From an uncultured Lutibacter sp. (GTDB taxonomy: Bacteria; Bacteroidota; Bacteroidia; Flavobacteriales; Flavobacteriaceae), in assembly GCF_947495725.1 (NCBI RefSeq), contig NZ_CANLZZ010000001.1, positions 186,001-250,000 on the forward strand: a stretch of 64,000 bases of DNA. Reading direction: 5' to 3'. The position numbers and the translations under genes were made by a program. The notes under the pieces were generated by a model that saw nothing but the letters and a program-made list of their open reading frames with translations, did no database searches and was not told the DNA's origin. Below, in pieces: positions 26,670 through 50,218 of this stretch; position 1 is the first letter of the stretch, and the number at the start of each line of letters is the position of its first letter.

Positions 26670-26759
26670 CAAAAATAACCTAGATATCAGCTCTTTAGGA
26701 TAATTTTAGATTAGACATTTATTTGTTTCGACCAATGGTTAATATCTTTCGTTAAATGA
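26670..26759 (-). promoter_or_regulatory. LytTR-type promoter A (CAP operon)
   Basis: In plus-strand letters: -7 box CAAAAATA (26670-26677; TATTTTTG on the minus strand), then 11-bp half-sites TAGATTAGACA (26707), TCGACCAATGG (26728) and TCGTTAAATGA (26749), each 21 bp apart. The proximal one starts 30 bp beyond the end of the -7 box. The predicted leader is about 23 nt. The best half-site reads ACCATTGGTCGA in promoter orientation, close to known LytTR/AlgR boxes. Confidence 0.7.
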
Positions 26760-26823
26760 AAATTGAGGCCAAAAGCCCTCCATTTTTTAGCTTAAAAATT
26801 TAGATAGAATAAAATTTAAAGCA

Positions 26824-26856
26824 TAAAAAAATGCAGCTTAAAGCTGCATTTTTTTA
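26824..26856 (-). terminator. Bidirectional hairpin terminator
   Basis: A perfect inverted repeat AAAAAAATGCAGCTT / AAGCTGCATTTTTTT with A and T runs on both flanks. It lies 31 bp after the stop of the receiver-GT2 gene (leftward) and separates it from the CAP promoter. Confidence 0.85.
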
Positions 26857-26886
26857 AAATCATTTAATACGTATTTCAATCTATTA

Positions 26887-28023
26887 TTATCTCAAAACCC
26901 AAGCTATTTGTCCTAGTTGACCAATAATTTTAATTGAATCTTTCATAGAAAGTTTTGAACCATCAGCATGAATCCATCTTTTCAATGGTTTTTCACATAA
27001 AATTTCTTTTGCTTTTTGTAAACCATACTGTTTTCTAATTCTAATAAATATTTCAACATCGAATAACCACTTTGTTAAAAATTTATTACTAAATGCAGTA
27101 TTTATAACATCTTTATGGAATATTTTAGCTCCACATTGGGTATCTTTAAATTCCATTTTTAATATTTTTCTAATAATATAATTTATTGTTAAACTAATTA
27201 TTTTACGAGCAGATTCTTTTGTAATATCTGCACCCATTCTGCTAATTCTAGAACCACTTACAATCTTATAATCGGAGTTTTCAATTGTTGAAACTAAATC
27301 GTCAAAATCGGCTAAATCTGTTGATAAATCCGCATCTAAAAAACCTATATAATCTAAATCTTCCTTTTTAGCCATATGAAGCATTCCCAATCTTACCGCT
27401 TCTGCCTTTCCTCCATTTTTTTCGCAATTATAAACAGTAATAAAACTTTCTCTTCCTTTTCTTAAATTGTGTAAAACTTCCAATGTATTATCCTTACTTC
27501 CATCGTTTACAAAACATAAATGATAACCCGAATGTTTATCAACAAAATCTAAAAACTGCGTACTTAGCAACCTTTCTTCTTCATTATAACAAGGTATTAC
27601 AACACCAACACATCTTTGTTCAATAATTGTATTTCCTTTGTTTTCAACAACAACACTAGTTTCTGGAGCTCCAATTAATCTTTTTACTCTTGCGCTAATT
27701 TCATTTAAACTTAAAGGTTTTTTCATATAGTCATTTATTCCTAATTCAAATCCTTCCGTAATTACTTCATCATTTGTATTACCTGAAAGTACCATTACCG
27801 GAATTGATGATTTTTCTTCAATCCTTATAAATTTTACAACATCAATTCCAGAAACATCCGGCATATTAATATCTACAATAACCAAATCTGGTTGAAATGA
27901 TTTAAAAGATTCCATTCCATCTTTTGCATTACTTTCGGTTTTAACTTCGTAACCCAAAGATTCTAATCTTTTTTGAAGTGGTAACAATACTAATTGCTGA
28001 TCATCAATGGCTAATACTTTCAT
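26887..28023 (-). CDS. Response-regulator receiver domain fused to a GT2 glycosyltransferase
   Basis: From ATG 28023 this is a 378-residue cytosolic protein. Residues 1-118 are a CheY-like receiver: acidic pair Asp7/Asp8, phosphoacceptor Asp51 (VIVDINMP), Ser80 (VLSG) and Lys102 (KKPL). Residues about 135-375 are a GT2 domain: VVIPCYNEE (141-149), FVNDGSKDNT (171-180) and the catalytic FLDADLSTDL, then an FKDTQCGAKIF segment typical of dolichyl/polyprenyl-phosphate glucosyltransferases. The start at 28068 is rejected because it would lie upstream of the predicted -7 box at 28054-28061. A receiver controlling a sugar transferase directly would let phosphorylation tune polymer or lipid-sugar synthesis (inference). 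It is divergent from the large membrane protein gene at 28202. Confidence 0.85.
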   Translation of the reverse strand: MKVLAIDDQQLVLLPLQKRLESLGYEVKTESNAKDGMESFKSFQPDLVIVDINMPDVSGIDVVKFIRIEEKSSIPVMVLSGNTNDEVITEGFELGINDYMKKPLSLNEISARVKRLIGAPETSVVVENKGNTIIEQRCVGVVIPCYNEEERLLSTQFLDFVDKHSGYHLCFVNDGSKDNTLEVLHNLRKGRESFITVYNCEKNGGKAEAVRLGMLHMAKKEDLDYIGFLDADLSTDLADFDDLVSTIENSDYKIVSGSRISRMGADITKESARKIISLTINYIIRKILKMEFKDTQCGAKIFHKDVINTAFSNKFLTKWLFDVEIFIRIRKQYGLQKAKEILCEKPLKRWIHADGSKLSMKDSIKIIGQLGQIAWVLR

Positions 28024-28053
28024 AATTTTTAATTTTTTAAATGATTTATACCC

Positions 28054-28122
28054 CAAAAATAGAGTCATTTGCCGTTTAAAATTTAAAATTTAGTTGAATC
28101 AAACTCTAATTTAGACGAATGG
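28054..28122 (-). promoter_or_regulatory. LytTR-type promoter B (receiver-GT2 gene)
   Basis: -7 box CAAAAATA in plus letters (28054-28061). Half-sites are TAGTTGAATCA (28091) and TAGACGAATGG (28112), 21 bp apart, the proximal starting 30 bp beyond the -7 box end. The distal site reads ACCATTCGTCTA in promoter orientation. The leader to ATG 28023 is about 25 nt. The downstream TTTTGGGGTATA is shared exactly with promoter E. Confidence 0.7.
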
Positions 28123-28144
28123 TAGTTTTAAGCAGATAAATAAA

Positions 28145-28175
28145 ATTGACCGGCCAAACAATTTCTTTATATTTA
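28145..28175 (+). promoter_or_regulatory. Possible promoter of the 28202-34072 operon
   Basis: TTG at about 28146 and TATATTTA (28168-28175, one mismatch to TAnnTTTG) at suitable -33/-7 spacing, 27 bp before ATG 28202. The LytTR half-sites at 28091-28122 lie just upstream and could also act on this promoter. Confidence 0.35.
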
Positions 28176-28201
28176 CATGATTGAAGAAACTTTAATTTTT
28201 A

Positions 28202-32538: not shown

Positions 32539-34072
32539 AAATATCTATCGAGGAATTTTAATTCTGTCATTTATTGCCATAAATGTGCTAATTATTTATA
32601 GTGTGAGCTTTGTTTTAGCTTATTTAAAAACAGGAGCTGATAGAGCAAACATGCTGCATATAGATATAAAAAGTGAAACTGTTTATGCTCCAAAAATAAA
32701 TTGGGCCAATTCTGAAAACATTGGACGAAAAATATCTAAACAAGAACTTAAAAGCATTGAGGATAATTATTTAAAATCTTGGTATATAAAAAATACCGCA
32801 TTTAAAAATAATAGTCCTTACGGAATTGAAGATTTTTATACAGATAGCGCTCGAGTACATATCTTTAATAATTTAAAATTAAATAAGAAACAACAAATTT
32901 CAATTGAAGCCACCACGATTAGTCATTCTCCCAAATTAGAATTTTACAGTGAAGATGGGAAACTTGCCGTTTTAACCGATAAAAATGTGGTTGAGTTTCA
33001 AAAAATATATAAAAACAATAAGCTTTTATTTAGCTCTACTGACACAAGTTCGTATAAAGTTGTTTTATTATTAGAAGATGGTTTTTGGAGGATAAGACAC
33101 AAAGTTAAAATTGAAAACGAATATTATAAAGACTCCACTAAAACAATACAACCTAAACAAATTAAAGATTCGGAAATTTTAGTTGAAGGAAAACCATTTA
33201 CCATAAAAGGAATTAATTATTACCCAAAGGAAACACCTTGGGATATGTTTGGTGAAAATTACAATTTACAAACTATTGAACAAGATTTTAAACTAATTAA
33301 AAATTCAGGTTTAAATAGTATTAGAATTTTTATTCAATATGAAGATTTTGGAAAAGAAAAAGTGCAACTCGAAAAATTAGAAAAGCTTAGAGAAGTTTTA
33401 AATACTGCTGAAAATATTGGATTAAAAGTAGTAGTTACTTTATTTGATTTTTATGGAGATTATTCTGTGTTAAATTGGACCTTAACTCATAGACACGCAG
33501 AACAAATTGTTTCAACATTTATAAACCATAATGCCATTTTAGCTTGGGATATTAAAAATGAACCAGATTTAGATTTTGAGTCTAGAAATAAAGAAACCGT
33601 ATTAGCATGGCTTTCTCAAATGATTAAAGAAATTAAAAAATTTGACCCAAATCATTTGGTAACAATAGGTTGGTCTTCACCTGAAGCAGCAAATAATTTA
33701 GTAAATGAAGTAGATTTTGTTTCGTACCACTATTATAAAAACATAGATAATTTTGAAAAAGATTATGAAACCTTAAAAGAAAATTCTTTAAACAAACCTA
33801 TAGTATTGCAAGAGTTTGGACTATCTTCTTATGGTGGTATTTGGAATTTGTATAGTAGTAGCGAAACCAAACAAGCGGAATATCATAAAAAAATGCAAGC
33901 AATCTTTAAAAAAGATTCACTTGCATTTATGTCCTGGGGCCTATATGACTTTAAAAAGATTCCAACTGCTGTAGCTGGTAGATTACCTTGGAAAAATACT
34001 AAACAAAAATATTTTGGTTTTATAAATGAAAACGGCGTTAAAAAAATGTCATTTTTACATATCACTAACTAA
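32519..34072 (+). CDS. Membrane-anchored GH5-like glycosidase with NTF2-like domain
   Basis: From ATG 32519 (TTG 32504 rejected as a weaker start) the protein has 517 residues. It has an N-terminal membrane anchor (about 12-38), an NTF2-like region (about 75-200) and a C-terminal TIM barrel (about 225-515). Clan GH-A signatures are AWDIKNEPD, with acid/base Glu348, and VLQEFGLSSY, with nucleophile Glu432. GH5 or a GH2-like barrel both fit. As a periplasm-facing hydrolase encoded with a GT-C-like protein, it may trim or edit a nascent polymer, as hydrolases do in cellulose, alginate and Pel export systems (inference). Its last 18 bp overlap the convergent GT4 gene. Confidence 0.75.
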   Translation: MQHKLNKNIYRGILILSFIAINVLIIYSVSFVLAYLKTGADRANMLHIDIKSETVYAPKINWANSENIGRKISKQELKSIEDNYLKSWYIKNTAFKNNSPYGIEDFYTDSARVHIFNNLKLNKKQQISIEATTISHSPKLEFYSEDGKLAVLTDKNVVEFQKIYKNNKLLFSSTDTSSYKVVLLLEDGFWRIRHKVKIENEYYKDSTKTIQPKQIKDSEILVEGKPFTIKGINYYPKETPWDMFGENYNLQTIEQDFKLIKNSGLNSIRIFIQYEDFGKEKVQLEKLEKLREVLNTAENIGLKVVVTLFDFYGDYSVLNWTLTHRHAEQIVSTFINHNAILAWDIKNEPDLDFESRNKETVLAWLSQMIKEIKKFDPNHLVTIGWSSPEAANNLVNEVDFVSYHYYKNIDNFEKDYETLKENSLNKPIVLQEFGLSSYGGIWNLYSSSETKQAEYHKKMQAIFKKDSLAFMSWGLYDFKKIPTAVAGRLPWKNTKQKYFGFINENGVKKMSFLHITN

Positions 34073-35260
34073 CTTTACTCCTGAGTTTTTAACCGCAATA
34101 GCGTTAAAATGTTCAATATACATATCGGTAATTGTTTCCATTGGTAATGAACAAGCTGCTTTATAATTATTTTTACCTAATTCCATTCTATACTCATCTT
34201 TTGTAATAATTTCTTGAATGGCATCTGCTAAAGATTCAGTACTTGTTGGATTAAAAAATTCACCTCTATACCCTTCATCTTTCACCAATAAACTTAAATC
34301 TCCTAAATCGGGTAAAACAACTGCTTTACCATAACTTCCGGCCTGGTGTAAAACTCCTGAGCTTCCAGTTGTAGATGTATAAGGAAATACAACCACTGCA
34401 CTTTTATTAAATATTACTGGCACATCACTTTCTTCTACATAGCCTGTAAATGTTAGGTTTGGCACATGTGCGTACTGCTTTTTAACATTTTCTAAATAAC
34501 CTGGAGTATTTGGGCTATCGGTTCCTGCTATTACAATCTCAATTTCTTCGCTTGTTCTTTTTCTAATTTCCTGAACAGCTTCTATCATTATTTCAACCTT
34601 TTTATAAGTTCCAAATTTCCCAAAAGTCATAACTTTTTTAGGACCTTTTGGTAAATCGAAACTTGGTTCTGGTGGAGTTTCAAAAGATCCGTGAGGGATT
34701 AAAACAACATTGTTAGCGTTATATTTTTCACTAAGAATTTCAACATACTTACCAATTGTTACAGCAACTAAATCTGCTTTCAATAAAAACTTTGTTAATG
34801 TAGTTCCAATAAAATTATACACCTTTTGTAATAATTTATTCTTTGCAAAACCTGCACTATCTAAATCAACTTGTTCTAAAATATTATGTAGTAAAACAAT
34901 TGAAGGAATTCTTTTTAATTTAAAAATCATAGGTAATAATAAACCTAAAGCTGCTGGAATTTTTTTATCACCAAACTTCATAAATTGAAGGTTAAATAAT
35001 ACGGCATCTGGTTTTTCTTCATTTATTGCTTTATAAATGCTTAGTACATTTTTATAGCTATTAAATTTCCAACTATCTTTTACTGTAATTTTACAATTAT
35101 TAGTCTCAAAATCAAGTTGTTTTTCTTCTTCTGTATGATCTGTTATTAATACTATTTCGCTTACTTCTTCTTTTTGAGCGAAGTGTTTTACTAAATGATA
35201 ACCATACTCTGTTAAAGTTACTTTGCTAGGTGGAAATGCTGTTACTATTGCTATTTTCAT
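34055..35260 (-). CDS. GT4 family glycosyltransferase
   Basis: A 401-residue GT-B glycosyltransferase. The N-terminal domain begins MKIAIVTAFPPSKVTLTEYG. The C-terminal domain has the nucleotide-sugar region from KVMTFGKFGTYKKVEIMIEA (about 215) and FTGYVEESDVPVIFNKSAVVVFP, with SGVLHQAGSYGKAVVLPD holding the acceptor/nucleotide motif in GT4 style. It probably adds a hexose to a lipid-linked or polysaccharide acceptor in the cytosol. It has its own LytTR-type promoter (35295-35363) with a leader of about 28 nt. Its 3' end overlaps the glycosidase gene by 18 bp on the opposite strand. Confidence 0.82.
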   Translation of the reverse strand: MKIAIVTAFPPSKVTLTEYGYHLVKHFAQKEEVSEIVLITDHTEEEKQLDFETNNCKITVKDSWKFNSYKNVLSIYKAINEEKPDAVLFNLQFMKFGDKKIPAALGLLLPMIFKLKRIPSIVLLHNILEQVDLDSAGFAKNKLLQKVYNFIGTTLTKFLLKADLVAVTIGKYVEILSEKYNANNVVLIPHGSFETPPEPSFDLPKGPKKVMTFGKFGTYKKVEIMIEAVQEIRKRTSEEIEIVIAGTDSPNTPGYLENVKKQYAHVPNLTFTGYVEESDVPVIFNKSAVVVFPYTSTTGSSGVLHQAGSYGKAVVLPDLGDLSLLVKDEGYRGEFFNPTSTESLADAIQEIITKDEYRMELGKNNYKAACSLPMETITDMYIEHFNAIAVKNSGVKLVSDM

Positions 35261-35294
35261 AATTTAATATTTTTTGTTCTGTTTAATTTCTATT

Positions 35295-35363
35295 CAAAAA
35301 TAATGAGAACAAACAGTTTAAAAATTAATCTTCGATAAGAGGAAAAATAGTTTCGATGAATGG
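35295..35363 (-). promoter_or_regulatory. LytTR-type promoter C (GT4 gene)
   Basis: -7 box CAAAAATA in plus letters (35295-35302). Half-sites are TCGATAAGAGG (35332) and TCGATGAATGG (35353), 21 bp apart, the proximal starting 30 bp beyond the -7 box end, as in promoters A, B, E and F. Confidence 0.72.
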
Positions 35364-35415
35364 AAAATATATAAGGTTAAAAGAATTTTAAAATGGTTAA
35401 ACTTTTTAAAATAAA

Positions 35416-36802: not shown

Positions 36803-37087
36803 CTAGTATGTAAAAATATTTTCCTTTTTAAATAATTGAACTAATTCTTTATCGTACAAGTCCACAATAAAAAAAGCCTTGTTTTTTTTAACTGCCTTTT
36901 TATATAAAGAAGAAATGAATTTTACACCAGCGCTATCCATTCCTTTAATTTTATTTATAGAAAGTTTAATATATGCTGATTGATCAATAAGTAATTCGAA
37001 GTAATTTTTAATTGAGTTAATCGTTTGTGAGTTTAACTCACCATTTATTTCATATGTTCCCGATTGTTTTGTAATTGAAAGTGCCAT
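36803..37087 (-). CDS. Stand-alone STAS-domain protein
   Basis: A 94-residue single-domain protein with the STAS fold pattern of anti-sigma-factor antagonists: a beta strand, then INGELNSQTINSIKNYF, and the conserved KGMDSAGVKFISS loop. Ser52, after Asp51, matches the usual phosphoserine position. No cognate anti-sigma kinase or PP2C phosphatase is encoded nearby. It is first gene of an operon with the flippase. It could form a partner-switching module with a kinase elsewhere, or act as a scaffold. Confidence 0.75.
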   Translation of the reverse strand: MALSITKQSGTYEINGELNSQTINSIKNYFELLIDQSAYIKLSINKIKGMDSAGVKFISSLYKKAVKKNKAFFIVDLYDKELVQLFKKENIFTY

Positions 37088-37117: not shown

Positions 37118-37187
37118 CAAATATCCGTTCAATCTGCCCGAAAAGTTGAAATTATTCGATGAATTGCGCTTTATTGTCGACGAATTA
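37118..37187 (-). promoter_or_regulatory. LytTR-type promoter D (STAS-flippase operon)
   Basis: Half-sites TCGATGAATTG (37156) and TCGACGAATTA (37177) are 21 bp apart. The -7 element CAAATATC in plus letters (37118-37125; GATATTTG on the minus strand) matches TAnnTTTG except the first T, and the proximal half-site starts 31 bp beyond it, as in promoter G. A weak third half-site may lie at 37135. The divergent gene at 37237 could share the sites. Confidence 0.6.
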
Positions 37188-37236
37188 TTAGCACTTTATA
37201 CTTAAATTGCAATCACAAATAAATAATAAAAAGAGA

Positions 37237-39294: not shown

Positions 39295-39321
39295 AAAAAA
39301 AACCGAAGTAAACTTCGGTTT
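39295..39321 (-). terminator. Intrinsic terminator between convergent genes
   Basis: AAACCGAAGT / ACTTCGGTTT form a perfect 10-bp stem with a 2-nt loop (39300-39321). The eight-T tract is on the minus strand, so termination is best leftward. Rightward it is followed only by TTTAATA, but it may also serve the exporter-like gene. Confidence 0.8.
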
Positions 39322-39379
39322 AATAGGGGTTTCTAATTATAACAATATCAATTAAACTAACTAATTAATCAATAAGTAT
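39295..39379 (-). ncRNA. Candidate LytTR-controlled small RNA (~85 nt)
   Basis: Predicted from three juxtaposed signals on the minus strand. These are tandem LytTR-type half-sites, an exact -7 box TAATTTTG (39391-39384), and, about 58 nt beyond the expected start, a perfect 10-bp hairpin followed by eight Ts. The stretch between has no ATG and only trivial frames. It lies between the convergent ends of the exporter-like gene and the FN3 lipoprotein gene, antisense to neither coding part. Alternatively the hairpin simply terminates the upstream operon (43457 to 39479) and the promoter is vestigial. Confidence 0.55.
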
Positions 39380-39383: not shown

Positions 39384-39475
39384 CAAAATTAAATATTGTA
39401 TCGTCCACATATATTAAAATTCGTTAACATATACCTTTTGTTTCGATAAATGATAGGTTTAGTATCGACCAATGG
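39384..39475 (-). promoter_or_regulatory. LytTR-type promoter E (orphan, small RNA)
   Basis: -7 box CAAAATTA in plus letters (39384-39391). Half-sites are TCGTTAACATA (39421, 30 bp from the -7 box end), TCGATAAATGA (39443) and TCGACCAATGG (39465), 22 bp apart. A weaker one, TCGTCCACATA, lies at 39401. It points left between two convergent genes, where no protein gene starts. Confidence 0.65.
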
Positions 39476-39478
39476 TTT

Positions 39479-40175: not shown

Positions 40176-43100
40176 TTATTGTTTTATAATTTTAATAACA
40201 ACTGGCTTGTTTAAATTTAATTTTGCCATATAAACTCCCTTCGGTTTATTTTCTAAATTTAATTGTACACTTCCATACACATTAGAATAATTTTGTTTTG
40301 ATATTAACTGTCCGTTCATATTAAAAATTTCAATAGCTACCTCTTCTTTTGTAGTTGGCATTGAAATTTGAAACATTCCATTGGTTGGATTAGGATATGC
40401 AGTAAATAAATCTGTTGCGTCTATTGTTTTTGAAAAAACACCTTCACAAGCAATATCTGATTTTACTTCAACCTTATCTCCTGCATTAACATCTAAATCG
40501 AATGAAGTTGATTGTGTTTTTAAAACACTTGTTCCATTTACAAAAACATTATATGGTGCAGTTCCTTCACCAATATCTATAGATACTTTTCCAGAAGTTA
40601 TACTTGATTTACCGGTTAAAACACTGCCACTTAAAATTTCAATAGAATAGCAACTACTAACTTTTTCATTTAAATCAAAATCACCTAATATATTTAAACA
40701 AAAATTATAAACACCTGGAGATAAATTGGAAACTGTAATACCTTCTGTTGAAAAATTATAGTTAACTCCATTAATAATAGTTTCATAGTTGTAATTTTCT
40801 TTAGCTGAAATTATTAATTGCCCATTTTTTATATCTGTACAAGTTTCTCCAACTGCGGTAATATTAAAATTATCGAAAGGTAAACTAAAACAACCTGATG
40901 CATTAATATCAGCTCCATAAGGAGTATTCATACAATTATCAAGTTCATCTATTATACCATCTTGGTCTAAATCTTGAAGAAATGCAAACTCATTTATTTC
41001 TAAATTGAAGGCCTTAAATTGGTTAAAATCACCTATTATAGAAAATACAACGCCTACTATTTTATTGATTTTTATAGGATTACCCTTTCCATTTTTAAAA
41101 TTCTTAAATGCTATGTTATATTTTTTTTCCGTTTCATTAGGTTCTATTTGAAACCGTAATCTGTCATTCCAATCTGTTAATCCTTCAGTAACTATAACCA
41201 CTTCAATAGGTAAATTATTAATGGTTTTAAATTCTAAAACCCCAAACTTCTCCGCATCAAATGCCAAATTACCAGCAATAATGTTTCTAAATAAATTTAC
41301 TACACCTTTAACGTTTCCTTTTACTGAAGATTTTCTTTCAATTTCATATTTGGTAGAATTTACATCAATAGATCTTTGCTGAACGTTAAATTCAATAGTT
41401 TTGGCATCGTCAGTTAAATAATCAATTCCCCAAGGTCCATCTGCTAAGTAAATAGCATCAGTTTGTAAAGAGTTTTCTCCTTTTATAGAAAATCCTATAT
41501 CAAATAAATTTCCGGTTTCTAAAATTATTTGTTCTTCTACATTTCCCGACAAATTAATATTTTGAGATATATGCTCCGAATAAGATTTTTCTGTACTTCT
41601 TTTATTTCCTTCAAAATAAAAAGAGCTGTCGTTAGATTTATTTTTTATATCTAAATACAATTTTCCATTTTTATAAAATCCTTTTTTTACAAAAACAGAA
41701 GGAACTCTGTTTTCATTAGATAAATTCTCACTAGACAAATGTACGCTTGTAGCAGACTCCAAATTTGAAATAATTTTATCTGCAATAAAATGTACTTGAC
41801 CTTTAGTACTTCCCCAAATTTGAAAATTCATATAATCACCAGCAGGGTATTGTTCAATACTCCAATAACTGTGTAATTTATTTTTAGTATTTAGAAGTTC
41901 TATTGAAAAATTTAAAGCATACTCTATCAATCCATTATCACGTTCAATCTGAAGCATAATAATTTGATGCTCTTTAACCATAGAAACAGTAGCATCAATT
42001 AATGAAGAACTATTTAATCTATCACAAATTACTTTTGAATGATCATAAACTTTGTCCGTTGTTTCAGTTGCCAAAACAGCGGCTACTCTATTATCTGTAT
42101 TTCCAACGTAATAATCAACTCCAAATATTTGTATTGCATTTGTAACATTTAACAAATCTTCTGCGGTAGAGATATGTGCTGTTTCTGTAGTATTTAATCC
42201 CGATTCGGGAAATAAAGTAGCTAAATTAATACCGCTTTCATTTGATTTTCTTTGAATTCCTTTTTTTGAAAATTTAGATTGCTTTTGCTTTTTATTTAAC
42301 TGATTATTGGTTTTTATTCTTTTAAAATTTCTATTAGCAATAAGACTTGCCAAATCTCCATTACTTTCCAAACCTCCATCATTTGCCGAAGTAACCGTAG
42401 TAGGTGGAGGAGCTAAAACTTGTAATTCTAAACTAGTAGTATCTGATTTAGATTGACTATTCGACAACCTGCTTGTTGTTGCTACAACTTCATAAGTACC
42501 TTCAGTAAATTCTGGAGCTAAAATAGTTAAACTCCACAATGTATTATCTATTACTAAACCATTTTCCACACCGTATGTATAACCATTAACGGTAACTGTT
42601 AAACTATCGTCACCTAACATAGTTCCTCCCCAAGTTCCTGTTATTCTTGGAGACGTATCTTCTGTAGTTAATTTATTTACTGTTGGGGTTAAAATTTCAC
42701 CCGAAGTAATGTTATTTAGGGTTCCGTTAATAATAATTCCTAATTCTTCCCAAGTTTTATCTAAAACTCCTGGTTCTTTATCGTTTATTCCTCCAATATC
42801 TCCGTTAGATGTTTGGCTTGTTGAGGTAAAACCATATAAAGCAATTGCAGAATCACCGTTTATTACAATTCCAAAGGTATTTAAAACATAAGCTTTTATA
42901 CTTTCTTCAGTAAAACCAAATTCTAGCCACGAATCTGGTCCCGCTCCATCAATATCTGTTCCTGCCGCATAATTAAAAATTCCAGCATTTCTATATGTTA
43001 GTTGCAATTCACCATTTCTTGTGCCATTTAACCAGGCAGTTTGTGAAGGAGAAAGTCCAGTTTTAGAATAATCTCTTTGATGAAAAGAAACATAAGGAGT

Positions 43101-43457
43101 TTTGTTTTTCCAATTAGCTTCGACAAATACGTCCGCAATCATATCTCCAGAAACATCTATTCCTAAATAAAAGGAAGTTAATGGATTCATTTCCGCCATT
43201 CTAGTCCTAAAATAATAAACATCATCTGTAATTCCATCACTAAAAGCTGTAGTCTCCTTTTTTGTTTCAACCAATGCGTAATTAGCATTCCCCACAAAAT
43301 CCTGATCGGCATTAGACTGTTGATCGTCATTTGGATCAAAATTATCGCCTTGCATAATTGCAACCCAAGCACTATTTGTTTGTTTAACAATACTTGTGTT
43401 TTGCGATATACTAAAGTTTATAGTAAAAAGAAAAGCTAAAAGTAAAATTTGTTTCAT
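40176..43457 (-). CDS. T9SS-secreted multidomain surface protein
   Basis: A 1093-residue protein with a signal peptide ending near SIS (residue 18) and a C-terminal type IX secretion sorting domain. The sorting domain starts at TAYPNPTNGMFQI (about 1019) and ends KIIKQ. Between them are a beta-rich N-terminal domain (about 20-245) and an Ig-like domain (about 255-350). Then come a low-complexity basic linker (NRNFKRIKTNNQLNKKQKQ, about 375-395), a large beta domain (about 420-830) and a calcium-binding thrombospondin type 3-like repeat (LDQDGIIDELDNC). No catalytic motif was recognised. It probably functions as an adhesin or matrix protein. It is led by LytTR-type promoter F and co-transcribed with the FN3 lipoprotein. 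Confidence 0.8.
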   Translation of the reverse strand: MKQILLLAFLFTINFSISQNTSIVKQTNSAWVAIMQGDNFDPNDDQQSNADQDFVGNANYALVETKKETTAFSDGITDDVYYFRTRMAEMNPLTSFYLGIDVSGDMIADVFVEANWKNKTPYVSFHQRDYSKTGLSPSQTAWLNGTRNGELQLTYRNAGIFNYAAGTDIDGAGPDSWLEFGFTEESIKAYVLNTFGIVINGDSAIALYGFTSTSQTSNGDIGGINDKEPGVLDKTWEELGIIINGTLNNITSGEILTPTVNKLTTEDTSPRITGTWGGTMLGDDSLTVTVNGYTYGVENGLVIDNTLWSLTILAPEFTEGTYEVVATTSRLSNSQSKSDTTSLELQVLAPPPTTVTSANDGGLESNGDLASLIANRNFKRIKTNNQLNKKQKQSKFSKKGIQRKSNESGINLATLFPESGLNTTETAHISTAEDLLNVTNAIQIFGVDYYVGNTDNRVAAVLATETTDKVYDHSKVICDRLNSSSLIDATVSMVKEHQIIMLQIERDNGLIEYALNFSIELLNTKNKLHSYWSIEQYPAGDYMNFQIWGSTKGQVHFIADKIISNLESATSVHLSSENLSNENRVPSVFVKKGFYKNGKLYLDIKNKSNDSSFYFEGNKRSTEKSYSEHISQNINLSGNVEEQIILETGNLFDIGFSIKGENSLQTDAIYLADGPWGIDYLTDDAKTIEFNVQQRSIDVNSTKYEIERKSSVKGNVKGVVNLFRNIIAGNLAFDAEKFGVLEFKTINNLPIEVVIVTEGLTDWNDRLRFQIEPNETEKKYNIAFKNFKNGKGNPIKINKIVGVVFSIIGDFNQFKAFNLEINEFAFLQDLDQDGIIDELDNCMNTPYGADINASGCFSLPFDNFNITAVGETCTDIKNGQLIISAKENYNYETIINGVNYNFSTEGITVSNLSPGVYNFCLNILGDFDLNEKVSSCYSIEILSGSVLTGKSSITSGKVSIDIGEGTAPYNVFVNGTSVLKTQSTSFDLDVNAGDKVEVKSDIACEGVFSKTIDATDLFTAYPNPTNGMFQISMPTTKEEVAIEIFNMNGQLISKQNYSNVYGSVQLNLENKPKGVYMAKLNLNKPVVIKIIKQ

Positions 43458-43474
43458 TTAATAACATTTTTAAA

Positions 43475-43543
43475 CAAAATTAACTTTCATTTAAAACTAT
43501 TATTATCATATTCGATTAAAACAAATTTAGTATAGATGAGTGG
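43475..43543 (-). promoter_or_regulatory. LytTR-type promoter F (1093-residue surface protein)
   Basis: -7 box CAAAATTA in plus letters (43475-43482). Half-sites are TCGATTAAAAC (43512) and TAGATGAGTGG (43533), 21 bp apart, the proximal 30 bp beyond the -7 box end. The 35-bp block from 43512 aligns base for base with 50166-50200 of promoter G, with about six differences. Confidence 0.72.
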
Positions 43544-43556
43544 TAAATACTTGTAG

Positions 43557-44261
43557 TTAAAGCAAGTTAAGGCGCTTCATTAATTCCGGTCTATTAGAGC
43601 GACTAACAGGAATAACATTATTACTTATTAACACACTATTATCTTCTATATCAATAATTTTTTTTGTGTTTATTATAAACGATCTATGCACCTTTAAAAA
43701 CAAATCATCGGGTAATTTTTCTTCAATTTTTTTCATTGTAGAATGTACAGTATAGTTTTTGCCATCTGTTTTAATTAAAATATAATCGCCCTTTGCTTCA
43801 ATTAAATTAATTGTTGCAAAATTTATTTTAACCAATCTTCTATCAATATTTACGTAAAGTTCATTTATAACTTCTGTTTCTTTTGATTTTGATTCAACAT
43901 TACTGGCCTGAGAAAATAATGTTGCTTTTTGAACTGCTTTATCAAAACGTTTTTGTGTAACTGGTTTTACTAAATAATCTACTATACAATCATATTCAAA
44001 AGCTTCAATTGCAAAGTTTTTATCTGATGTGGTAAGTATTACTTTTGGTGGATTTTTTAATGTTTGAAGCAAATCAAAACCTGTAAAAGTTGGCATATGG
44101 ATGTCTAAAAATATTAGATCTATTGTATTTTGATTTAAGTATTTAATTGCATCTATGGCATTAGAAAAACTTTCAACTAAACTTAACTTCTTGTTTTTGG
44201 AAATTAATTGCTCAATAATGGCACGTGCCATTTCTTCATCATCAATTATAATACTTTTCAT
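43557..44261 (-). CDS. LytTR-family response regulator
   Basis: A 234-residue transcription factor. The receiver (about 1-120) has acidic Asp7/Asp8, phosphoacceptor Asp53 (FLDIHMP) and a KPV segment. The LytTR DNA-binding domain (about 130-234) has FATINLIEAKGDYILIKTDG, KKIEEKLPDDLFLKVHRSFIIN and IPVSRS, the family's core. LytTR proteins bind direct repeats spaced by two helical turns, exactly the arrangement found in seven promoters here. It is last gene of the sensor operon, 12 bp after the HPt gene, and is the most likely ligand of those sites. Its operon carries one of them, suggesting autoregulation. Confidence 0.9.
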   Translation of the reverse strand: MKSIIIDDEEMARAIIEQLISKNKKLSLVESFSNAIDAIKYLNQNTIDLIFLDIHMPTFTGFDLLQTLKNPPKVILTTSDKNFAIEAFEYDCIVDYLVKPVTQKRFDKAVQKATLFSQASNVESKSKETEVINELYVNIDRRLVKINFATINLIEAKGDYILIKTDGKNYTVHSTMKKIEEKLPDDLFLKVHRSFIINTKKIIDIEDNSVLISNNVIPVSRSNRPELMKRLNLL

Positions 44262-44273
44262 AAAGCTTTTTTT

Positions 44274-44594
44274 TTAATATTGATTTATAAAGTTAACCAT
44301 AACTTTTAAAATAGTATCAAATTGCGTTTTTGATTTTGTTATTTTTTTCTTTAATTCTTCTTCGTAATCAATTGCAACCTGATAACTTTTTTCAAGACCT
44401 AAAGTACTAATTTTATGTTTAATTTTATGCACAATTTCTGCAGCTTGTTTAAAATTCTGCTCTTTTAAAAAAGTTTCATAACTTTTTATTTCTTCTGGAA
44501 GTTCATTTTTAACTATTTCTAGCATTTTTTCTTCAAAAATTAAATCGCCTCCTGAAATTTCTTTTATATATTTTAAATTAGGTTTTTCTGTCAT
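44274..44594 (-). CDS. Stand-alone HPt phosphotransfer protein
   Basis: A 106-residue all-helical protein with the histidine phosphotransfer signature IVHKIKHKISTLGL, His56 being the predicted phosphoacceptor. There is no kinase or receiver domain. It overlaps the upstream histidine kinase gene by 4 bp and precedes the LytTR regulator gene by 12 bp. A free HPt implies a four-step relay: a kinase, a receiver (probably the one at 49687-50100), this HPt, then the LytTR regulator and possibly the receiver-GT2 fusion. Confidence 0.85.
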   Translation of the reverse strand: MTEKPNLKYIKEISGGDLIFEEKMLEIVKNELPEEIKSYETFLKEQNFKQAAEIVHKIKHKISTLGLEKSYQVAIDYEEELKKKITKSKTQFDTILKVMVNFINQY

Positions 44595-45640
44595 TTTGTA
44601 TTTTTTGGTATGGTAAAATAAAAAGTTGTTCCTTTGGATAAATCACTAGTAAGCCAAATTTCACCACCATAAAACTCTATAATTCTTTTTACTATTGACA
44701 AGCCAATACCTGTTGTATTTTGCTCAACATCAATACTTTGAAAAATTTCAAATATTTTCTTATGGTATTTTTCCAAAATTCCTTTTCCGTTATCTTTAAT
44801 ATAAAATTCCCAAAAATGGTTTTTATCGTTTACACCAACTTCAATTTTACCATTAGTTTTATCAATACTTTTTATAGCATTTTGTAGTAAATTTTGAAAC
44901 ACTTGCTGCAATCTATATTTATCACCAACTATTATTGGTAAATTGTCATGTATAATTAACTGCACATGTTCTGGGATTAACAAAACTTCTCTTAATTCTG
45001 AAACTAAATAATGTATATCTACATCATATTTTTCAACTTCCGCTTTATCTATTGTAGAATAATTTAAGATGCCATTAATCATAGCGTCCATTTTTTCAAC
45101 ATTTTTTAATATTAATTGAAAATGGCTTTTACTTTCCTCATCAATTTTATTATTATCGTTTTCCAAAATCCAATTAACCAAAGAATCAATACTTCTTAAT
45201 GGCGATTTTAAATCGTGCGAAACAATATGTGCATAATTATTTAATTCTTGATTTTTAAATTCTAAATTGGCAAGTAATTCTTCTCGCTGCTTATTTACTT
45301 TTAATATTTCTTTAGATTGCTTTTTAATAAATTTTGCCAAATCTACTTTTTCATCAATATCTAACTCCGTTTCTGAAGAATCTCCAAGCTTTAAAATTCT
45401 TACAATATAATTTAAGTTTTCAATAATTCCTTGTTGAATTTCGGCATCTTCCTTTAACTTTTTATTAGCCTGAAATAATTCATCTGAGCTAATAATCATT
45501 GCTCTTTGAGACATTTTTAACTGATCTTCATAATTGGCGTATGATTGATTTATTGCTGAAAAAAAATTCTCTAATCTTTTTTCATCAACCAAATCATCTG
45601 GAAGATGTTTTCTTATTTGTCTAAGTAGTAACGAATTCAC
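44591..45640 (-). CDS. Cytosolic histidine kinase paired with the FIST sensor
   Basis: A 349-residue kinase without membrane spans or PAS domain. The N-terminal region (MNSLLLRQIRKHLPDD, then SAINQSYANYEDQLKMSQRAM and ISSDELFQA) is an element I associate with FIST-linked kinases. A coiled coil follows (about 55-135), then HisKA with His142 (IVSHDLKSP) and an ATPase domain with N box (QQVFQNLLQNA) and GTTFYFT. The start is a GTG sharing its first base with the FIST gene's TAG, so translation is coupled. The H-box region is almost identical to that of the PAS kinase in the operon (AHIVSHDLKSPLRSI), suggesting that both kinases use the same receiver. Confidence 0.86.
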   Translation of the reverse strand: MNSLLLRQIRKHLPDDLVDEKRLENFFSAINQSYANYEDQLKMSQRAMIISSDELFQANKKLKEDAEIQQGIIENLNYIVRILKLGDSSETELDIDEKVDLAKFIKKQSKEILKVNKQREELLANLEFKNQELNNYAHIVSHDLKSPLRSIDSLVNWILENDNNKIDEESKSHFQLILKNVEKMDAMINGILNYSTIDKAEVEKYDVDIHYLVSELREVLLIPEHVQLIIHDNLPIIVGDKYRLQQVFQNLLQNAIKSIDKTNGKIEVGVNDKNHFWEFYIKDNGKGILEKYHKKIFEIFQSIDVEQNTTGIGLSIVKRIIEFYGGEIWLTSDLSKGTTFYFTIPKNTK

Positions 45641-46773
45641 TATTCACTAATTAATGTTAATGTCATTGTTTGATTGTGTAACTCACATGCTGTTTCTCCA
45701 TAAAATGGCGCCATTTCGCCATAAGAATAAAAACCTGTTAACGAAGTTTGCTTACCAATAACATTTATTACCTCTTCAATTTCCTCCTCTGCTCTTTGAT
45801 CCATAACTAGTTTTCGACCAATACAACTTACCAACAATGCTAATTGTGGTTTATTTACTCTTTTTTCCATTGCTAATTTTGCAGCTTCATATGCGCCATC
45901 AGCAATTGCATCTACAGATGCCATCATTAATTGAACTTTAGATCCTTCAGGTACATCACCTGCCAATATCATTGAATTATTTTCTTTATTTATAGATAAA
46001 ATGGTTCTAACTACTGGTTTCGATTTTCCTTTTGGAGTTACATTTAAAGGGAAAAGCAACGATGCCTGAGGAAGCTCAGATGCTTTATCTCCCAAATATT
46101 TAGAATACAAATCTAATGCTGGTAAATCATCTATTTCAAATAATATGTTTCCCTCCGATTTTGTAATAATTCGTTCCGGTCCAAACGGTCTCCAACCTCC
46201 AAAACTTGCAAATGAAATTTCTAATGCATCTCCATAAAAGCCAATTATAATTACTTCTCCTTCTTTAGGATTATCTTTATATGATGCAAGTGTTTTTTCA
46301 AACCTTGCTCCATCTCCACACATTCCACCAGTTAACGAAATTTTATCATAAAAAGAAGATTCAATTCCTTCAATTAAAGCGCTTCCGTTTACAAAACTTC
46401 CTTCTGATAAAACAAAAACATGTTTTAAATGTTCTTTTGGCAACTCTTTAATTAAACTTTCTCCTAAATTTTTAGCATTTTTATTAAAATCAAAAATATT
46501 AGCAGTTTTCACAACATATAAGCTTTTTTCAAACTCAATAGCAGTTACAACAATTGATGTATCTAAAACGTGCTCTCCTATTATTTCTCCTGAAGTTGAA
46601 CCAAAAACTAAATTTTTATACGGAAATTCTTTTCTTACATTATCAATTACTTCCTTGTTTTCCAATTCGAATCGTCCTCCAAAAACCAATACTAGTGGGT
46701 TTTTTAGGGATTTATTTTCCGATAAATATTCCCACCTTCCATTTTTAGTTTTTTTAGCTTGTACTACCTTCAT
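45640..46773 (-). CDS. FIST-domain sensor (NosP-type haem protein candidate)
   Basis: A 377-residue soluble protein made of FIST_N (about 20-215; LVFGSTSGEIIGEHV, LTGGMCGDGARFEKT) and FIST_C (about 220-370; LDLYSKYLG, then the terminal GFYSYGEMAP and CELHNQTMTL). Some FIST proteins (NosP) are nitric-oxide-binding haem sensors that inhibit a partner kinase encoded next door. Here the partner is the kinase at 44591-45640, translationally coupled. The haem ligand of NosP cannot be assigned by eye. FIST domains may also bind small molecules such as amino acids, so NO sensing is inferred from the neighbouring H-NOX gene. Confidence 0.82.
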   Translation of the reverse strand: MKVVQAKKTKNGRWEYLSENKSLKNPLVLVFGGRFELENKEVIDNVRKEFPYKNLVFGSTSGEIIGEHVLDTSIVVTAIEFEKSLYVVKTANIFDFNKNAKNLGESLIKELPKEHLKHVFVLSEGSFVNGSALIEGIESSFYDKISLTGGMCGDGARFEKTLASYKDNPKEGEVIIIGFYGDALEISFASFGGWRPFGPERIITKSEGNILFEIDDLPALDLYSKYLGDKASELPQASLLFPLNVTPKGKSKPVVRTILSINKENNSMILAGDVPEGSKVQLMMASVDAIADGAYEAAKLAMEKRVNKPQLALLVSCIGRKLVMDQRAEEEIEEVINVIGKQTSLTGFYSYGEMAPFYGETACELHNQTMTLTLISE

Positions 46774-46776
46774 ATA

Positions 46777-49143
46777 TTACTTTTTTATACTAAAAAAGAA
46801 AGTAGTTCCAATTCCTACTTCACTTTCGATCCAAATTTTTCCTTTATATAATTCAACTACTTTTTTTACAATATTTAATCCAATTCCTGATGAATTTTCA
46901 TAATTACCTAAAGTGCTAAACATTTTAAATATTTTCTCGTGATATTCTTTTGGAATACCAACACCATTATCTTTAATTGAAAAGGTATAAAAATCTTCCG
47001 ATTCGGAATAATCAACCTCAACCAAACCCATTTCTTTATCAATATAATTTACTGCGTTACCAATTAAATTTTGAAAAAGCTGCTGTATCCTTGTTGCATC
47101 GGCTTTTATAATTGGTAATTTTTGTTTGGTAACTACTTTTATATGATCTGGAATAAAAATAATGTGTACAATATCTTTTATAATATTATTTACATCAACA
47201 AGATCATAATTCATACCTTCGTCTTCAATACTTGAATAATTTAAAATATCACCTATTAGCTTATCCATTTTCTCAACCTTATCTTCCATTAGGTTTAAAT
47301 TAACCAAGCTCTGTTCTCCTAATTTCTCTTCAAAATCTTCTTTAGTCCAACTTAACAAAGCCGAAATACTTCTTAATGGCGATTTTAAATCGTGCGAAAC
47401 AATATGTGCATATTCATTTAATTGTTCATTCTGTTTTTCTAAACTTTTCAGTAATTCTTCTTTTTGCTTTTCTAAATTTTTTTGTTCGGTAATATCCAAA
47501 TGAATTCCAATTGAACCAACTATTTCTCCATTTACATTATAATTTGGAGCGCCGCTTATAAGCCAATTCTTAATGTCGCCACTTTTAGATATTGCATTTA
47601 CTTCATATGAATCTGAAATCCCTTGTTCTCTATTATTCATTTTGGTATAAAATACCTTAGAGCTTTCTTTACTTAAAATTAATTCTGCTGCTTTTTTTCC
47701 AACTAATTCATTTAATGAATAACCACTTAATTCACAAAAACTTTGGTTTGCAAATAAAATTTCGTCGTTGTTATCAACTTCGAGTAAACCCAAATTCATA
47801 TTAGCAATTATACTGCTATATTTTTCTCTTTGAGCTTCTAAACTTTCTTCATATCTCTTACCAATAGTTATATCATCATAGCTCCATAAATAGCCCTTAT
47901 AAACTCCATCTTGGAGTATTGGAATTCCATTTCTTTCAAAAACTCTACCATCATTTAATTCAAGCTCTTGTTTATAAACATCATCGTTTTTTTGTAAAAC
48001 TAGATTATTGGTATTTAAAAAATAATCTGGTTTTTTAAAAAGGTGTTTTGCTTTTTCATGAAAATGAGATACTTTTTTTCCTTGTATTGCTAATTCATCA
48101 TCAAATAAATCAAATAATGAACAAAACTTTTTGTTTACAACTTGAATATTCTTGTGATTGTCTTCCAATAATATTCCTGTTTGAAGATGACCTATTAAAG
48201 TTGATAGCCTATTTTCTGAATCTTTAAGTTTTTCTTTTGCCTCTTTTTCTTGAGTGATATCTTCAATTGTAGTAACATGGTATTTAACATTGTTTTTATT
48301 GTCTTTTACACCCGTAACAGAAGTTTTAGCCCAAACTATTTCACCTCCTTTTTTTACATATCTTTTGTCTAAAAAATAAGAATCTATTTCGTTATTATAC
48401 AACTTATTACGTTTAACAGCTGAAACATCTTTATCTTCTAAATATGTAATATCCTGAAGTTTTATTGTTTTTAATTCTTCGTGAGAATAACCAAGCATTT
48501 GAGCTAAAGAATTATTTGCCATAATTAACCCAACGTCATCTTTCCTAGATAATGAAATTCCAATAGGAGAATGATCTACAATAATATCTAACTGTTTTTT
48601 TTGTTGCTCTATTAGTTCTTTGTAAATATTTTCTTGTGTAATATCTCTTAAAATTCCTTGGGCTGCAATTGGTTTTCCTTCTTTATTATAAATAATACTA
48701 GAATTTACCTGAACTAATTTATCTCCGCTGTTTTTTGTTTTAATTACAGCTTGATAATCTTTATAATAGCCTTTTTCGTATAATTTTTTAAAAGCTTTTT
48801 CTGTATATTCTAAATAATCTTCAGTAACAATTGAAGTTAAATTAAATGATTCTTTGCTTGCATCATAACCCAGCATTTCAACTGCGGCTTCGTTCATATT
48901 TAAAACATTGCCCATAATATCCATAACAATATAGGCATCAACAATATTTAAGAAAACACCTTCTAATTCCGATGTTTTTTGACTTAAAGAATCTTCTAGT
49001 TTTTCGTTTGAAATTTTTAACTCTTGGGTTAAATTGTATAATTCATAAGATTTTTCTTCAAGAATCTTTTCTGCTGCTTTTCTTGCCGCCTTTTCTCTTT
49101 GAAGTGCTCTTTCTAATATTTCAACTTTATTATTGTTCTCCAT
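46777..49143 (-). CDS. Four-PAS histidine kinase paired with H-NOX
   Basis: A 788-residue soluble kinase. An N-terminal coiled coil (1-65) precedes four PAS domains (about 66-185, 186-305, 310-430 and 435-555), three of which end in the PAC-like D-I-T-Q-E motif. HisKA with His584 (IVSHDLKSP) and an ATPase domain with RIQQLFQNLIGNA and SSGIGL follow. No transmembrane segment. Its start overlaps the H-NOX stop by 14 bp, the usual coupling of H-NOX with its kinase, so NO-bound H-NOX probably inhibits its autophosphorylation (family knowledge). No haem-PAS histidine was identified with confidence. Confidence 0.88.
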   Translation of the reverse strand: MENNNKVEILERALQREKAARKAAEKILEEKSYELYNLTQELKISNEKLEDSLSQKTSELEGVFLNIVDAYIVMDIMGNVLNMNEAAVEMLGYDASKESFNLTSIVTEDYLEYTEKAFKKLYEKGYYKDYQAVIKTKNSGDKLVQVNSSIIYNKEGKPIAAQGILRDITQENIYKELIEQQKKQLDIIVDHSPIGISLSRKDDVGLIMANNSLAQMLGYSHEELKTIKLQDITYLEDKDVSAVKRNKLYNNEIDSYFLDKRYVKKGGEIVWAKTSVTGVKDNKNNVKYHVTTIEDITQEKEAKEKLKDSENRLSTLIGHLQTGILLEDNHKNIQVVNKKFCSLFDLFDDELAIQGKKVSHFHEKAKHLFKKPDYFLNTNNLVLQKNDDVYKQELELNDGRVFERNGIPILQDGVYKGYLWSYDDITIGKRYEESLEAQREKYSSIIANMNLGLLEVDNNDEILFANQSFCELSGYSLNELVGKKAAELILSKESSKVFYTKMNNREQGISDSYEVNAISKSGDIKNWLISGAPNYNVNGEIVGSIGIHLDITEQKNLEKQKEELLKSLEKQNEQLNEYAHIVSHDLKSPLRSISALLSWTKEDFEEKLGEQSLVNLNLMEDKVEKMDKLIGDILNYSSIEDEGMNYDLVDVNNIIKDIVHIIFIPDHIKVVTKQKLPIIKADATRIQQLFQNLIGNAVNYIDKEMGLVEVDYSESEDFYTFSIKDNGVGIPKEYHEKIFKMFSTLGNYENSSGIGLNIVKKVVELYKGKIWIESEVGIGTTFFFSIKK

Positions 49144-49681
49144 TTTTTTCTGAAATTAGAAATAGAACCTCAGTACCATCCTCTTTCAACAATGTGTAAT
49201 TTACAACGGCATTTTTATTATAATGCTCAAAAGTTTTTTCTATTAAAGCTTTGGCAAACATATACAATCCTCGGTCTGAATAATAAATCATTTCTATTGA
49301 CTTATCATCTTTTCTATTTATTTTAAATGTAGGCAATTCTGCCCCAGGATACAATTTCCTCACTTCTACATGGATATGGTTTTCAACAGATTCCAACAAA
49401 TTTATAGGCGAATTATAATAATTTATAATATCTGGATGTTGACGATGTAATACTTTGAAAAAATATAACCCATACGCATAAATTAAATCTTGTACTGGCA
49501 TATTAACCTTTTCACTTAGGTTAGAAATTAAACTAAGCATTTCAAAAAAATCATATGTCCCAACCGAAGTATAAACACCTTTTGATTTTAGTTCTGATTT
49601 ATATAAAATATAATCAACAGTTTCTAAACCAAATGTTTCTTCAACCATTTCCAAAAACTCTGTAAATACAATTCCTTTCAT
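49130..49681 (-). CDS. H-NOX haem nitric-oxide sensor
   Basis: A 183-residue cytosolic gas sensor. The proximal haem ligand is predicted as His104 in HIHVEVRKLYPGAELPTF, and the porphyrin-clamping YxSxR motif is Tyr133-Tyr-Ser135-Asp-Arg137, 29 residues on, as in characterised H-NOX domains. MKGIVFTEFLEMVEETFG is a typical H-NOX N-terminus. The position five residues after the Arg is Phe142. Characterised O2-binding H-NOX proteins have a distal Tyr at about that spacing, so an NO-selective site is favoured, although Tyr140 is nearby. It lies between the receiver gene (5-bp gap) and its PAS kinase gene (14-bp overlap). Confidence 0.9.
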   Translation of the reverse strand: MKGIVFTEFLEMVEETFGLETVDYILYKSELKSKGVYTSVGTYDFFEMLSLISNLSEKVNMPVQDLIYAYGLYFFKVLHRQHPDIINYYNSPINLLESVENHIHVEVRKLYPGAELPTFKINRKDDKSIEMIYYSDRGLYMFAKALIEKTFEHYNKNAVVNYTLLKEDGTEVLFLISEKNGEQ

Positions 49682-49686
49682 TTTAA

Positions 49687-50100
49687 TTAACCTTTTATTA
49701 ATTCATTAGCGCTCCAGTAGTCTAAAACTCTTTTTATTAATTCAACGTAATCGTTAAATTTAAGAGGCTTAATTACATAACCCGATACTCCAATTTTATA
49801 ACACTCTAACATATCTTTTCGGTTATTAGATGTGGTTAAAATTACAGTAGGTATATATTTTAATTCATTATCATTTTTTAGAATACTTAAAAATTCTATA
49901 CCATTTAATTTTGGCATGTTTAAATCTAACAAAATAATATCGGGCAATCTATCTTTTTTATACAAAATTTTCAATGCATCTTCTCCGTTATTAGCTTCAA
50001 TTATTTTGTGAGGATAATCAAGTTTAGAAATTGTTCTATTTAACTTCATTACTTCAATCATATCATCTTCAATTAGAAGTATTGTTAATTTTTTATCCAT
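49687..50100 (-). CDS. Single-domain response regulator (Rcp1-like receiver)
   Basis: A 137-residue CheY-like protein without an output domain. The acidic pocket is Glu11/Asp12/Asp13, the phosphoacceptor is Asp59 (LLDLNMP), with TTSN and the conserved Lys in VIKPLKF. First gene of the seven-gene operon. In a pathway with two kinases lacking receivers and a free HPt, it is the obvious intermediate that takes phosphate from the kinases and passes it to His56 of the HPt protein (inference). Confidence 0.88.
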   Translation of the reverse strand: MDKKLTILLIEDDMIEVMKLNRTISKLDYPHKIIEANNGEDALKILYKKDRLPDIILLDLNMPKLNGIEFLSILKNDNELKYIPTVILTTSNNRKDMLECYKIGVSGYVIKPLKFNDYVELIKRVLDYWSANELIKG

Positions 50101-50127
50101 TTTTTAAGAAATTTTATTAATTGAGAA

Positions 50128-50218
50128 TAAATATCGTAATTATGTAGTGTCTTGCTTCTTTAATCTCGCTCAAAACAAATTAACTATCGACGAATGGTTG
50201 AAAACTGTCGATAAACGA
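50128..50218 (-). promoter_or_regulatory. LytTR-type promoter G (sensor operon, autoregulation)
   Basis: Half-sites TCGCTCAAAAC (50166), TCGACGAATGG (50187) and TCGATAAACGA (50208), each 21 bp apart. The -7 element is weaker (TAAATATC in plus letters, 50128-50135), with the proximal half-site 31 bp beyond it, as in promoter D. ATG 50100 is about 22 nt from the predicted start. The central site reads ACCATTCGTCGA in promoter orientation, the best match to the consensus. Confidence 0.65.

Follow-up and report, generated by a model that had tools for sequence, protein, structure and literature searches.

Do seven leftward promoters lying within 24 kb of one another answer to a single regulator, and if so to which one? 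The window considered here is a whole stretch of 64,000 nucleotides from an uncultured Lutibacter sp. of the Flavobacteriaceae (assembly GCF_947495725.1, contig NZ_CANLZZ010000001.1), in which tandem direct repeats, termed arrays A to G, precede seven predicted promoters; an initial annotation had proposed that they form a local regulon of the LytTR response regulator encoded at 43557-44261. To our knowledge, few transcription-factor sites have been described in Flavobacteriaceae. As judged from sequence, arrays A to G are, with a probability of roughly 0.85, operators of this LytTR protein, which would command one regulon within a sensor-gated phosphorelay and activate polysaccharide and surface genes. 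Papers are cited by PubMed Central number (PMC). The arrays are listed with their -7 boxes and with E-values from the profile R1 described below.

26707..26761, minus strand: array A, three half-sites, the proximal one weak; box 26670-26677; E 4.1e-10
28091..28124, minus strand: array B, two half-sites and a marginal third at 28133-28145; box 28054-28061; E 2.5e-10
35332..35365, minus strand: array C, two half-sites; box 35295-35302; E 1.0e-10
37156..37189, minus strand: array D, two half-sites; box 37118-37125 (GATATTTG); E 1.4e-8
39421..39477, minus strand: array E, three half-sites with a 22-bp period; box 39384-39391; E 1.3e-4
43512..43545, minus strand: array F, two half-sites and a marginal third at 43554-43566; box 43475-43482; E 8.3e-11
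50166..50220, minus strand: array G, three half-sites; box 50128-50135 (GATATTTA); E 9.3e-11

All 17 half-sites start where the initial annotation had placed them, with a period of 21 bp (22 bp at array E) and the same orientation in all seven arrays. Both pairs and triplets were observed as described, the triplets being A, E and G; third half-sites 21 bp further upstream were marginal at best in B, C and F (2.9, -1.2 and 0.7 bits), and none was found at that distance upstream of array D. The half-site consensus is ACCATTC[G/A]TC[G/T]A, often followed by CACTTA, and the strong copies are ACCATTCGTCGA-like in the promoter sense. The tandem half-sites end 29-30 bases before the flavobacterial sigma-A -7 box, so that, as had been noted, the proximal half-site starts at 30 or 31 bp from the box, with 29 intervening bases in A, B, C, E and F and 30 in D and G. 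The TAnnTTTG box itself is exact in five of the seven arrays and imperfect in D and G, and the predicted leaders to the six coding starts were recomputed as 13-30 nt in place of 12-28 nt, the transcription start being set by a -7 box at -12 to -5 (PMC9723704); the first ATG of the open reading frame (ORF) behind B falls upstream of the box, so its start codon was set at 28023. By arithmetic from the same box position the proximal pair is centred near -58, and no conserved -33 element was seen by eye in an alignment of 69 promoters. Known LytTR operators consist of 9-11 nt repeats with 11-13 nt spacers (PMC4847170), a rule with which the period of 21 or 22 bp agrees in all seven arrays.

Within their own genome, the strong arrays are local to this stretch. 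A 13-column matrix was built from the 17 half-sites and applied to pairs spaced 20-22, with the -7 box excluded; the best pair per array reached 22.9-31.8 bits (31.2 bits for E), all leftward-strand pairs of the window that exceeded 11 bits overlapped an array, and the best pair on the other strand reached 12.0 bits. The profile R1, based on sequence only, was made from 69 promoters of the named loci introduced below, none of them from the window genome and five from other Lutibacter. In a scan of the whole genome (4.24 Mb) it placed the seven arrays at ranks 1-7, in the order F, G, C, B, A, D, E, with E-values from 8.3e-11 to 1.3e-4, followed by matches at 2.5e-4 and then 0.045; the arrays thus exceed what chance would give. 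The match at 2.5e-4 (G000:C8:68507), before a gene that by eye resembles a sugar nucleotidyltransferase, was considered as an eighth target and judged to be chance, because it falls within an open frame of 195 codons and its spacing to the box, 18 bases, does not fit.

The genes behind the arrays are given below; REC denotes a receiver domain, GT2 and GT4 glycosyltransferase families 2 and 4, and T9SS the type IX secretion system.

26153-26641, minus strand: CAP-domain lipoprotein gene behind A (Pfam CAP)
26887-28023, minus strand: REC-GT2 fusion gene behind B (Pfam; start taken as above)
34055-35260, minus strand: GT4 glycosyltransferase gene behind C (Pfam)
36803-37087, minus strand: STAS gene behind D (Pfam STAS)
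35488-36762, minus strand: 424-aa protein, second behind D, putatively flippase-like
40176-43457, minus strand: T9SS-tailed protein behind F (Pfam)
39479-40174, minus strand: fn3 protein, second behind F (Pfam)
43557-50100, minus strand: sensor-regulator operon behind G, consisting of the seven genes that follow
49687..50100, minus strand: stand-alone REC, first operon gene (Pfam)
49130..49681, minus strand: H-NOX (HNOB) protein (Pfam, 133.4 bits, cut-off 25.5)
46777..49143, minus strand: PAS-repeat histidine kinase (Pfam)
45640..46773, minus strand: FIST protein, NosP-like only (Pfam FIST N and C)
44591..45640, minus strand: histidine kinase (Pfam)
44274..44594, minus strand: Hpt phosphotransfer protein (Pfam)
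43557..44261, minus strand: LytTR response regulator, proposed binder of A to G (Pfam)

Conservation of the arrays was assessed with the window matrix. Both strands of 696,343 bases from 20 relatives yielded 46 pairs scoring above 19 bits; they came from 19 of the 20 genomes, every one was in the gene sense, and 42 lay at most 500 bp upstream of a mapped orthologue. With the window included, an array stands upstream of the first gene of the operon (REC) in 21 of 21 genomes, and at p <=0.006 against 2766 background blocks arrays were found upstream of REC in 21/21, GT4 in 6/10, REC-GT2 in 6/10 and STAS in 5/6 orthologues. A second set, the named loci, comprised 80 Flavobacteriaceae loci (1,486,336 bases), some from the same genomes as the relatives; 72 of these carried arrays, with 145 pair matches on the LytTR strand versus three on the opposite strand. 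Two of these three stand before genes, an inverted REC gene in L120 and a STAS-like gene in L161. The named loci include one of Flavobacterium psychrophilum (L119), where the REC promoter bears an array. Within 140 bp beyond 130 collapsed promoters, 57 TAnnTTTG boxes were observed, 25 at offsets 29-30, 27 at 49-51 and five elsewhere; 52 of 57 boxes therefore fall at two phases 21 bp apart, the box being no part of the matrix. For the training of R1, the 44 of 130 promoters lacking a box were dropped and 69 of the remaining 86 were aligned. An exact half-site pattern proved less sensitive in the relatives, matching 19 of 100 genomes, own included. The fixed phase upstream of a promoter, as seen from the boxes of other genomes, and the association with a LytTR regulator gene are both as in LytTR-type operators.

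The link to this particular regulator comes from its orthologues, defined as LytTR matches at E 1e-60 or better and present in 29 of 99 relatives. R1 matches (E <=1.3e-5) were detected in 28 of the 29 relatives with the orthologue versus five of the 70 without it, under R1 cut-offs that were chosen after the tables had been seen, and this distribution supports the proposed regulon of the LytTR protein. In two of the five exceptions (G007 and G029), REC and kinase genes follow the array close to the end of a contig. An array also stands before GT4 in two genomes whose polysaccharide cluster lies elsewhere, in G039 on a separate contig and in G056 some 20 kb away.

Which genes carry arrays was tabulated with 213 of the 245 R1 rows in the named loci, and the table is to be read in that sense and not as discovery, because many of these promoters had entered the training of R1. 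R1 matches were observed for REC in 61/71, GT4 in 20/26, STAS in 20/24, CAP in 4/4 and T9SS in 1/1; for H-NOX in 2/46, FIST in 0/40, Hpt in 0/70, LytTR in 0/78, PAS kinase in 0/19 and TPR in 0/31; and for the 424-aa protein in 2/29, the glycoside hydrolase in 0/7 and the 1032-aa protein in 0/3. Among 68 loci with enough flank, both sensor genes were present in 25, H-NOX only in 19 and FIST only in 15, so that 59 loci have H-NOX and/or FIST genes; the sensors look exchangeable, as their mix varies over the 68 loci, whereas the regulator and its operator are retained.

The initial annotation had included neither the H-NOX and FIST genes of the operon nor the small RNAs behind such arrays in relatives. 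HNOB scores above its cut-off in the H-NOX protein, the nearest solved structures are 6bde (E 2.6e-59) and 6bdd, and a histidine and a YxSxR motif, which we take to be those of H-NOX proteins, were seen by eye in the predicted product. The structure 6BDD is the Ka (Kordia algicida) H-NOX in PMC7356049. The FIST protein has the FIST N and C domains only and falls short of the NCBIfam NosP equivalog cut-off (59.9 vs 450 bits). In the LytTR protein, both REC and LytTR exceed their curated cut-offs and Asp53 is invariant in 20 aligned sequences. The fusion of REC to GT2 behind B suggests direct phospho-control of a sugar transferase. The 424-aa protein has no family at E 0.001 in Pfam or NCBIfam, and no Pel-named family was found among the Pfam and NCBIfam matches of the GT4 and 424-aa proteins, the presence of PelF and PelG models in these libraries being unchecked. 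Of the rightward genes between the arrays, two encode proteins of 1032 aa (membrane-like, no family) and 412 aa (no confident family), and two encode a hydrolase related to beta-glucuronidase and mannanase and a TPR protein whose BcsC_C match is below the cut-off; taken together, the surroundings of the arrays would be an exopolysaccharide cluster. A 3617-aa ORF at 50337-61190, with no Pfam match above cut-off, adjoins the sensor operon on its upstream side.

In the proposed mechanism, a signal read by the H-NOX and FIST proteins would alter the flow of phosphate to Asp53 of LytTR, carried by both kinases, REC and Hpt. Once phosphorylated, LytTR would occupy two or three half-sites, all on the same DNA face, and aid RNA polymerase at promoters without an evident -33 element. 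The targets turned on would be its own operon (feedback from G), genes for sugar transfer and export (B, C and D), surface proteins (A and F) and possibly a small RNA from E. An activator is favoured since the pair centre lies near -58, close to the -60 of AgrA, and no conserved -33 element is apparent by eye.

Several observations weigh against a single activated regulon of this kind. The -7 boxes of D and G are imperfect. At E 0.01, R1 matches appear in all 29 relatives with the orthologue and also in 22 of the 70 without a close one, and G037, G044 and G092 have strong matches with no close LytTR detected. The window matrix sees no array before GT4 and REC-GT2 in G038, G042, G047 and G055; and R1 finds REC-GT2 in 0/3 cases in the named loci. 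Activation by LytTR is suggested by position. Nitric oxide (NO) is a presumed ligand, a reading weakened by three observations: the FIST protein falls below the NosP cut-off, nine of the 68 loci have neither sensor gene, and six Lutibacter relatives (G001, G002, G003, G010, G016 and G026) keep the array with only REC, kinase and LytTR in the region fetched.

Some further genes behind arrays were observed in the relatives. Two tandem tiny ORFs (MKKVIKLSEKL... and MKKLAELAEKL...) stand behind a LytTR array in L184 (G037:C30, ~1980-2200), and a UDP-glucose dehydrogenase-like gene does so in L160. L. oricola (G009) encodes three 190-aa proteins that resemble one another and begin with signal-like sequences, each behind a strong LytTR array at its own place in the genome (L188, L189 and L190); the one examined matched no Pfam family.

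Array E differs from the other six in that no ORF was found behind it.

39295..39379, minus strand: predicted 85-nt ORF-less transcript from E, candidate small RNA (folding z -2.89)

An intrinsic terminator at 39321-39300 ends this predicted transcript, and the window contains no match reaching an Rfam gathering threshold. At close to even odds, array E is a relic whose downstream gene was lost, leaving an 85-nt transcript without function: in the close relative G032 the counterpart looks degenerate and gives no profile match, and of 60 profile matches in relatives 56 were checked, 53 of which are followed by an ORF of at least 40 aa. Speaking for a functional unit are the high matrix score of E, its exact box and its terminator; conserved RNAs lacking an ORF also follow such arrays in other genera. 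Among the 213 R1 promoters tabulated in the named loci, an ORF of at least 40 aa starts within 170 nt in 185 and none does in 28, of which 12 have a script-detected terminator and at least one is at a locus end. ORF-less units that are alike within groups stand directly after LytTR in Mesonia/Salegentibacter (three loci), Zunongwangia (three loci) and Tenacibaculum. In three species of Zunongwangia, about 290 nt without a detected ORF are well conserved behind an array directly after the LytTR gene (L112:10820-11120, L130:10818-11120 and L133:10821-11120).

A family of such RNAs was examined in the genus holding T. skagerrakense, where the pattern KGGGGGATTTA has at least 115 sites in 58 genomes. 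Compared with the 150 R1 promoters listed, 24 sites (17 genomes) among the matches listed lie 10-73 nt downstream of a promoter on the same strand, where 0.008 were expected, and on the opposite strand none lies at that distance among the matches listed; the pattern was chosen after reading five of these genomes, without which 13 sites in 12 genomes remain. The RNA core, UUGGGGGAUUUA, sits on a hairpin followed by a terminator, and the copies are in tandem triplets or scattered (Tenacibaculum). The core is constant in 23 copies, partly by construction as the copies were found by it, and two of the 25 copies (L222 and L255) depart from it and were left out of the alignment A3. Pairing holds in 89% of the hairpin cells, compared with a maximum of 53.8% after sliding, and six of 13 pairs show double changes; shuffles reached the observed value in 14/500 for double-change pairs, 0/500 for the covariation score and 204/500 for pair types, the 13-pair hairpin having been taken from single-sequence folds and counted on the same sequences, and RNAalifold on A3 gave five pairs and no double change. 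A covariance model finds this GGGGG-hairpin RNA in all seven genomes chosen as carriers. Its presence in the window genome was rejected (best E 0.238), so that the E transcript does not belong to this family and shares with it the LytTR-type array in front. None was found at 0.01 in 397 family genomes, a weak negative with 11 candidates scored per genome and no known carrier included. Rfam had no match at 15 loci of relatives and, in a set of 20 loci, only tRNAs and one opposite-strand Flavo-1 above threshold. This Flavo-1 RNA (RF01705, L242:288-359, minus strand) adjoins a GGGGG-hairpin RNA on the opposite strand. In the Tenacibaculum group, RNAs with TTTAGATTTATTTGGTTGAT before the terminator, several of them tandem, were also observed (L140:10740-11560, L168:8780-9700, L223, L224, L225, L226 and L227); this element has 19 sites in four of the 58 genomes, at least 11 of which were matched by eye to an upstream LytTR-type array. 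The Vibrio relay has LuxO and its Qrr small RNAs. We tentatively suggest, at somewhat less than even odds, that in Flavobacteriaceae an H-NOX/FIST-gated LytTR phosphorelay commands dedicated small RNAs together with polysaccharide genes, resembling the Vibrio NO-to-small-RNA design, with Tenacibaculum LytTR promoters driving multicopy RNAs and E as a lineage-specific member of this layer.

The remaining alternatives concern the whole set of arrays. The same LytTR protein might act as a repressor whose arrays silence the genes in the absence of a releasing signal, for example NO; the sensor output may have either sign, and NO-bound NosP inhibits VpsS in Vibrio cholerae (PMC6769237), while the pair centre near that of the activator AgrA and the lack of a conserved -33 element by eye make repression improbable. 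Still less probable is binding by another regulator, for example another LytTR protein: the genome has ten LytTR domain matches and the site layout is common to LytTR proteins (PMC4847170), but strong arrays track this orthologue (28/29 vs 5/70), an array heads the operon of this LytTR in 21/21 genomes, and seven of the nine other LytTR neighbourhoods, those read (1.5 kb each side), are without arrays, with a maximum of 12.6 bits vs 22.9 here. That one promoter was copied by duplication within the locus with no shared regulator, as seven arrays of one orientation in 24 kb might suggest, is very improbable, since mainly the half-sites and box and not the intervening sequence are in common, and arrays persist before orthologous genes in different genera and at unlinked loci. 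Chance AT-rich repeats as the origin of the arrays were rejected on strand and phase.

For the preferred reading, a regulon activated by the LytTR protein of the sensor operon, the operator type is already known, and the H-NOX/FIST setting and the RNA branch appear to be new. No LytTR operator in Bacteroidota, no H-NOX-LytTR link and none of these RNAs appeared in titles and abstract openings of the open-access papers listed, with subscription papers and supplements outside this scope; the LytTR passages of PMC10197871, PMC5395568 and PMC10057207 and the H-NOX passages of PMC8776716 contain no such sites; and LytTR has no occurrence in the main text of the F. psychrophilum transcript map (PMC9723704). 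For family-wide signalling linked to H-NOX and FIST genes, the operator is now defined, a regulator proposed and a set of targets named, and H-NOX control in Bacteroidota becomes directly testable with one protein, seven promoters and one gas. The operator also serves as a probe, having led to conserved ORF-less RNAs without an Rfam family in the searches made.

Among known systems, the operators of AgrA, PlnC/PlnD and YpdB likewise lie upstream of the promoter and are built of direct repeats, each about 9-11 nt long, at a period near 21-22 bp, as in the 9 + 12 bp of the PlnC/PlnD sites (PMC2714321) and the AgrA repeats centred near -60 (PMC4227749), whereas the present arrays have another half-site sequence, often three sites and a TAnnTTTG -7 box. 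That box is shared with the sigma-A promoters of F. psychrophilum, where TAnnTTTG lies at -12 to -5 (PMC9723704). The resemblance to AlgR pointed out earlier holds, with CCGTTCGTC (PMC4064291) vs CCATTCGTC here, and AlgZR of Pseudomonas aeruginosa likewise ties a LytTR regulator to exopolysaccharide; at algD, by contrast, the sites are found at positions -470, -394 and -45, the one at -45 being reversed, and form no tandem array as here. The H-NOX/NosP relays of Vibrio (HqsK, VpsS and LuxU) are alike in that heme sensors feed kinases and a phosphotransfer protein tied to biofilm genes (PMC6769237), whereas in the window the FIST protein misses the NosP cut-off and the output is a LytTR regulator with its own operators.

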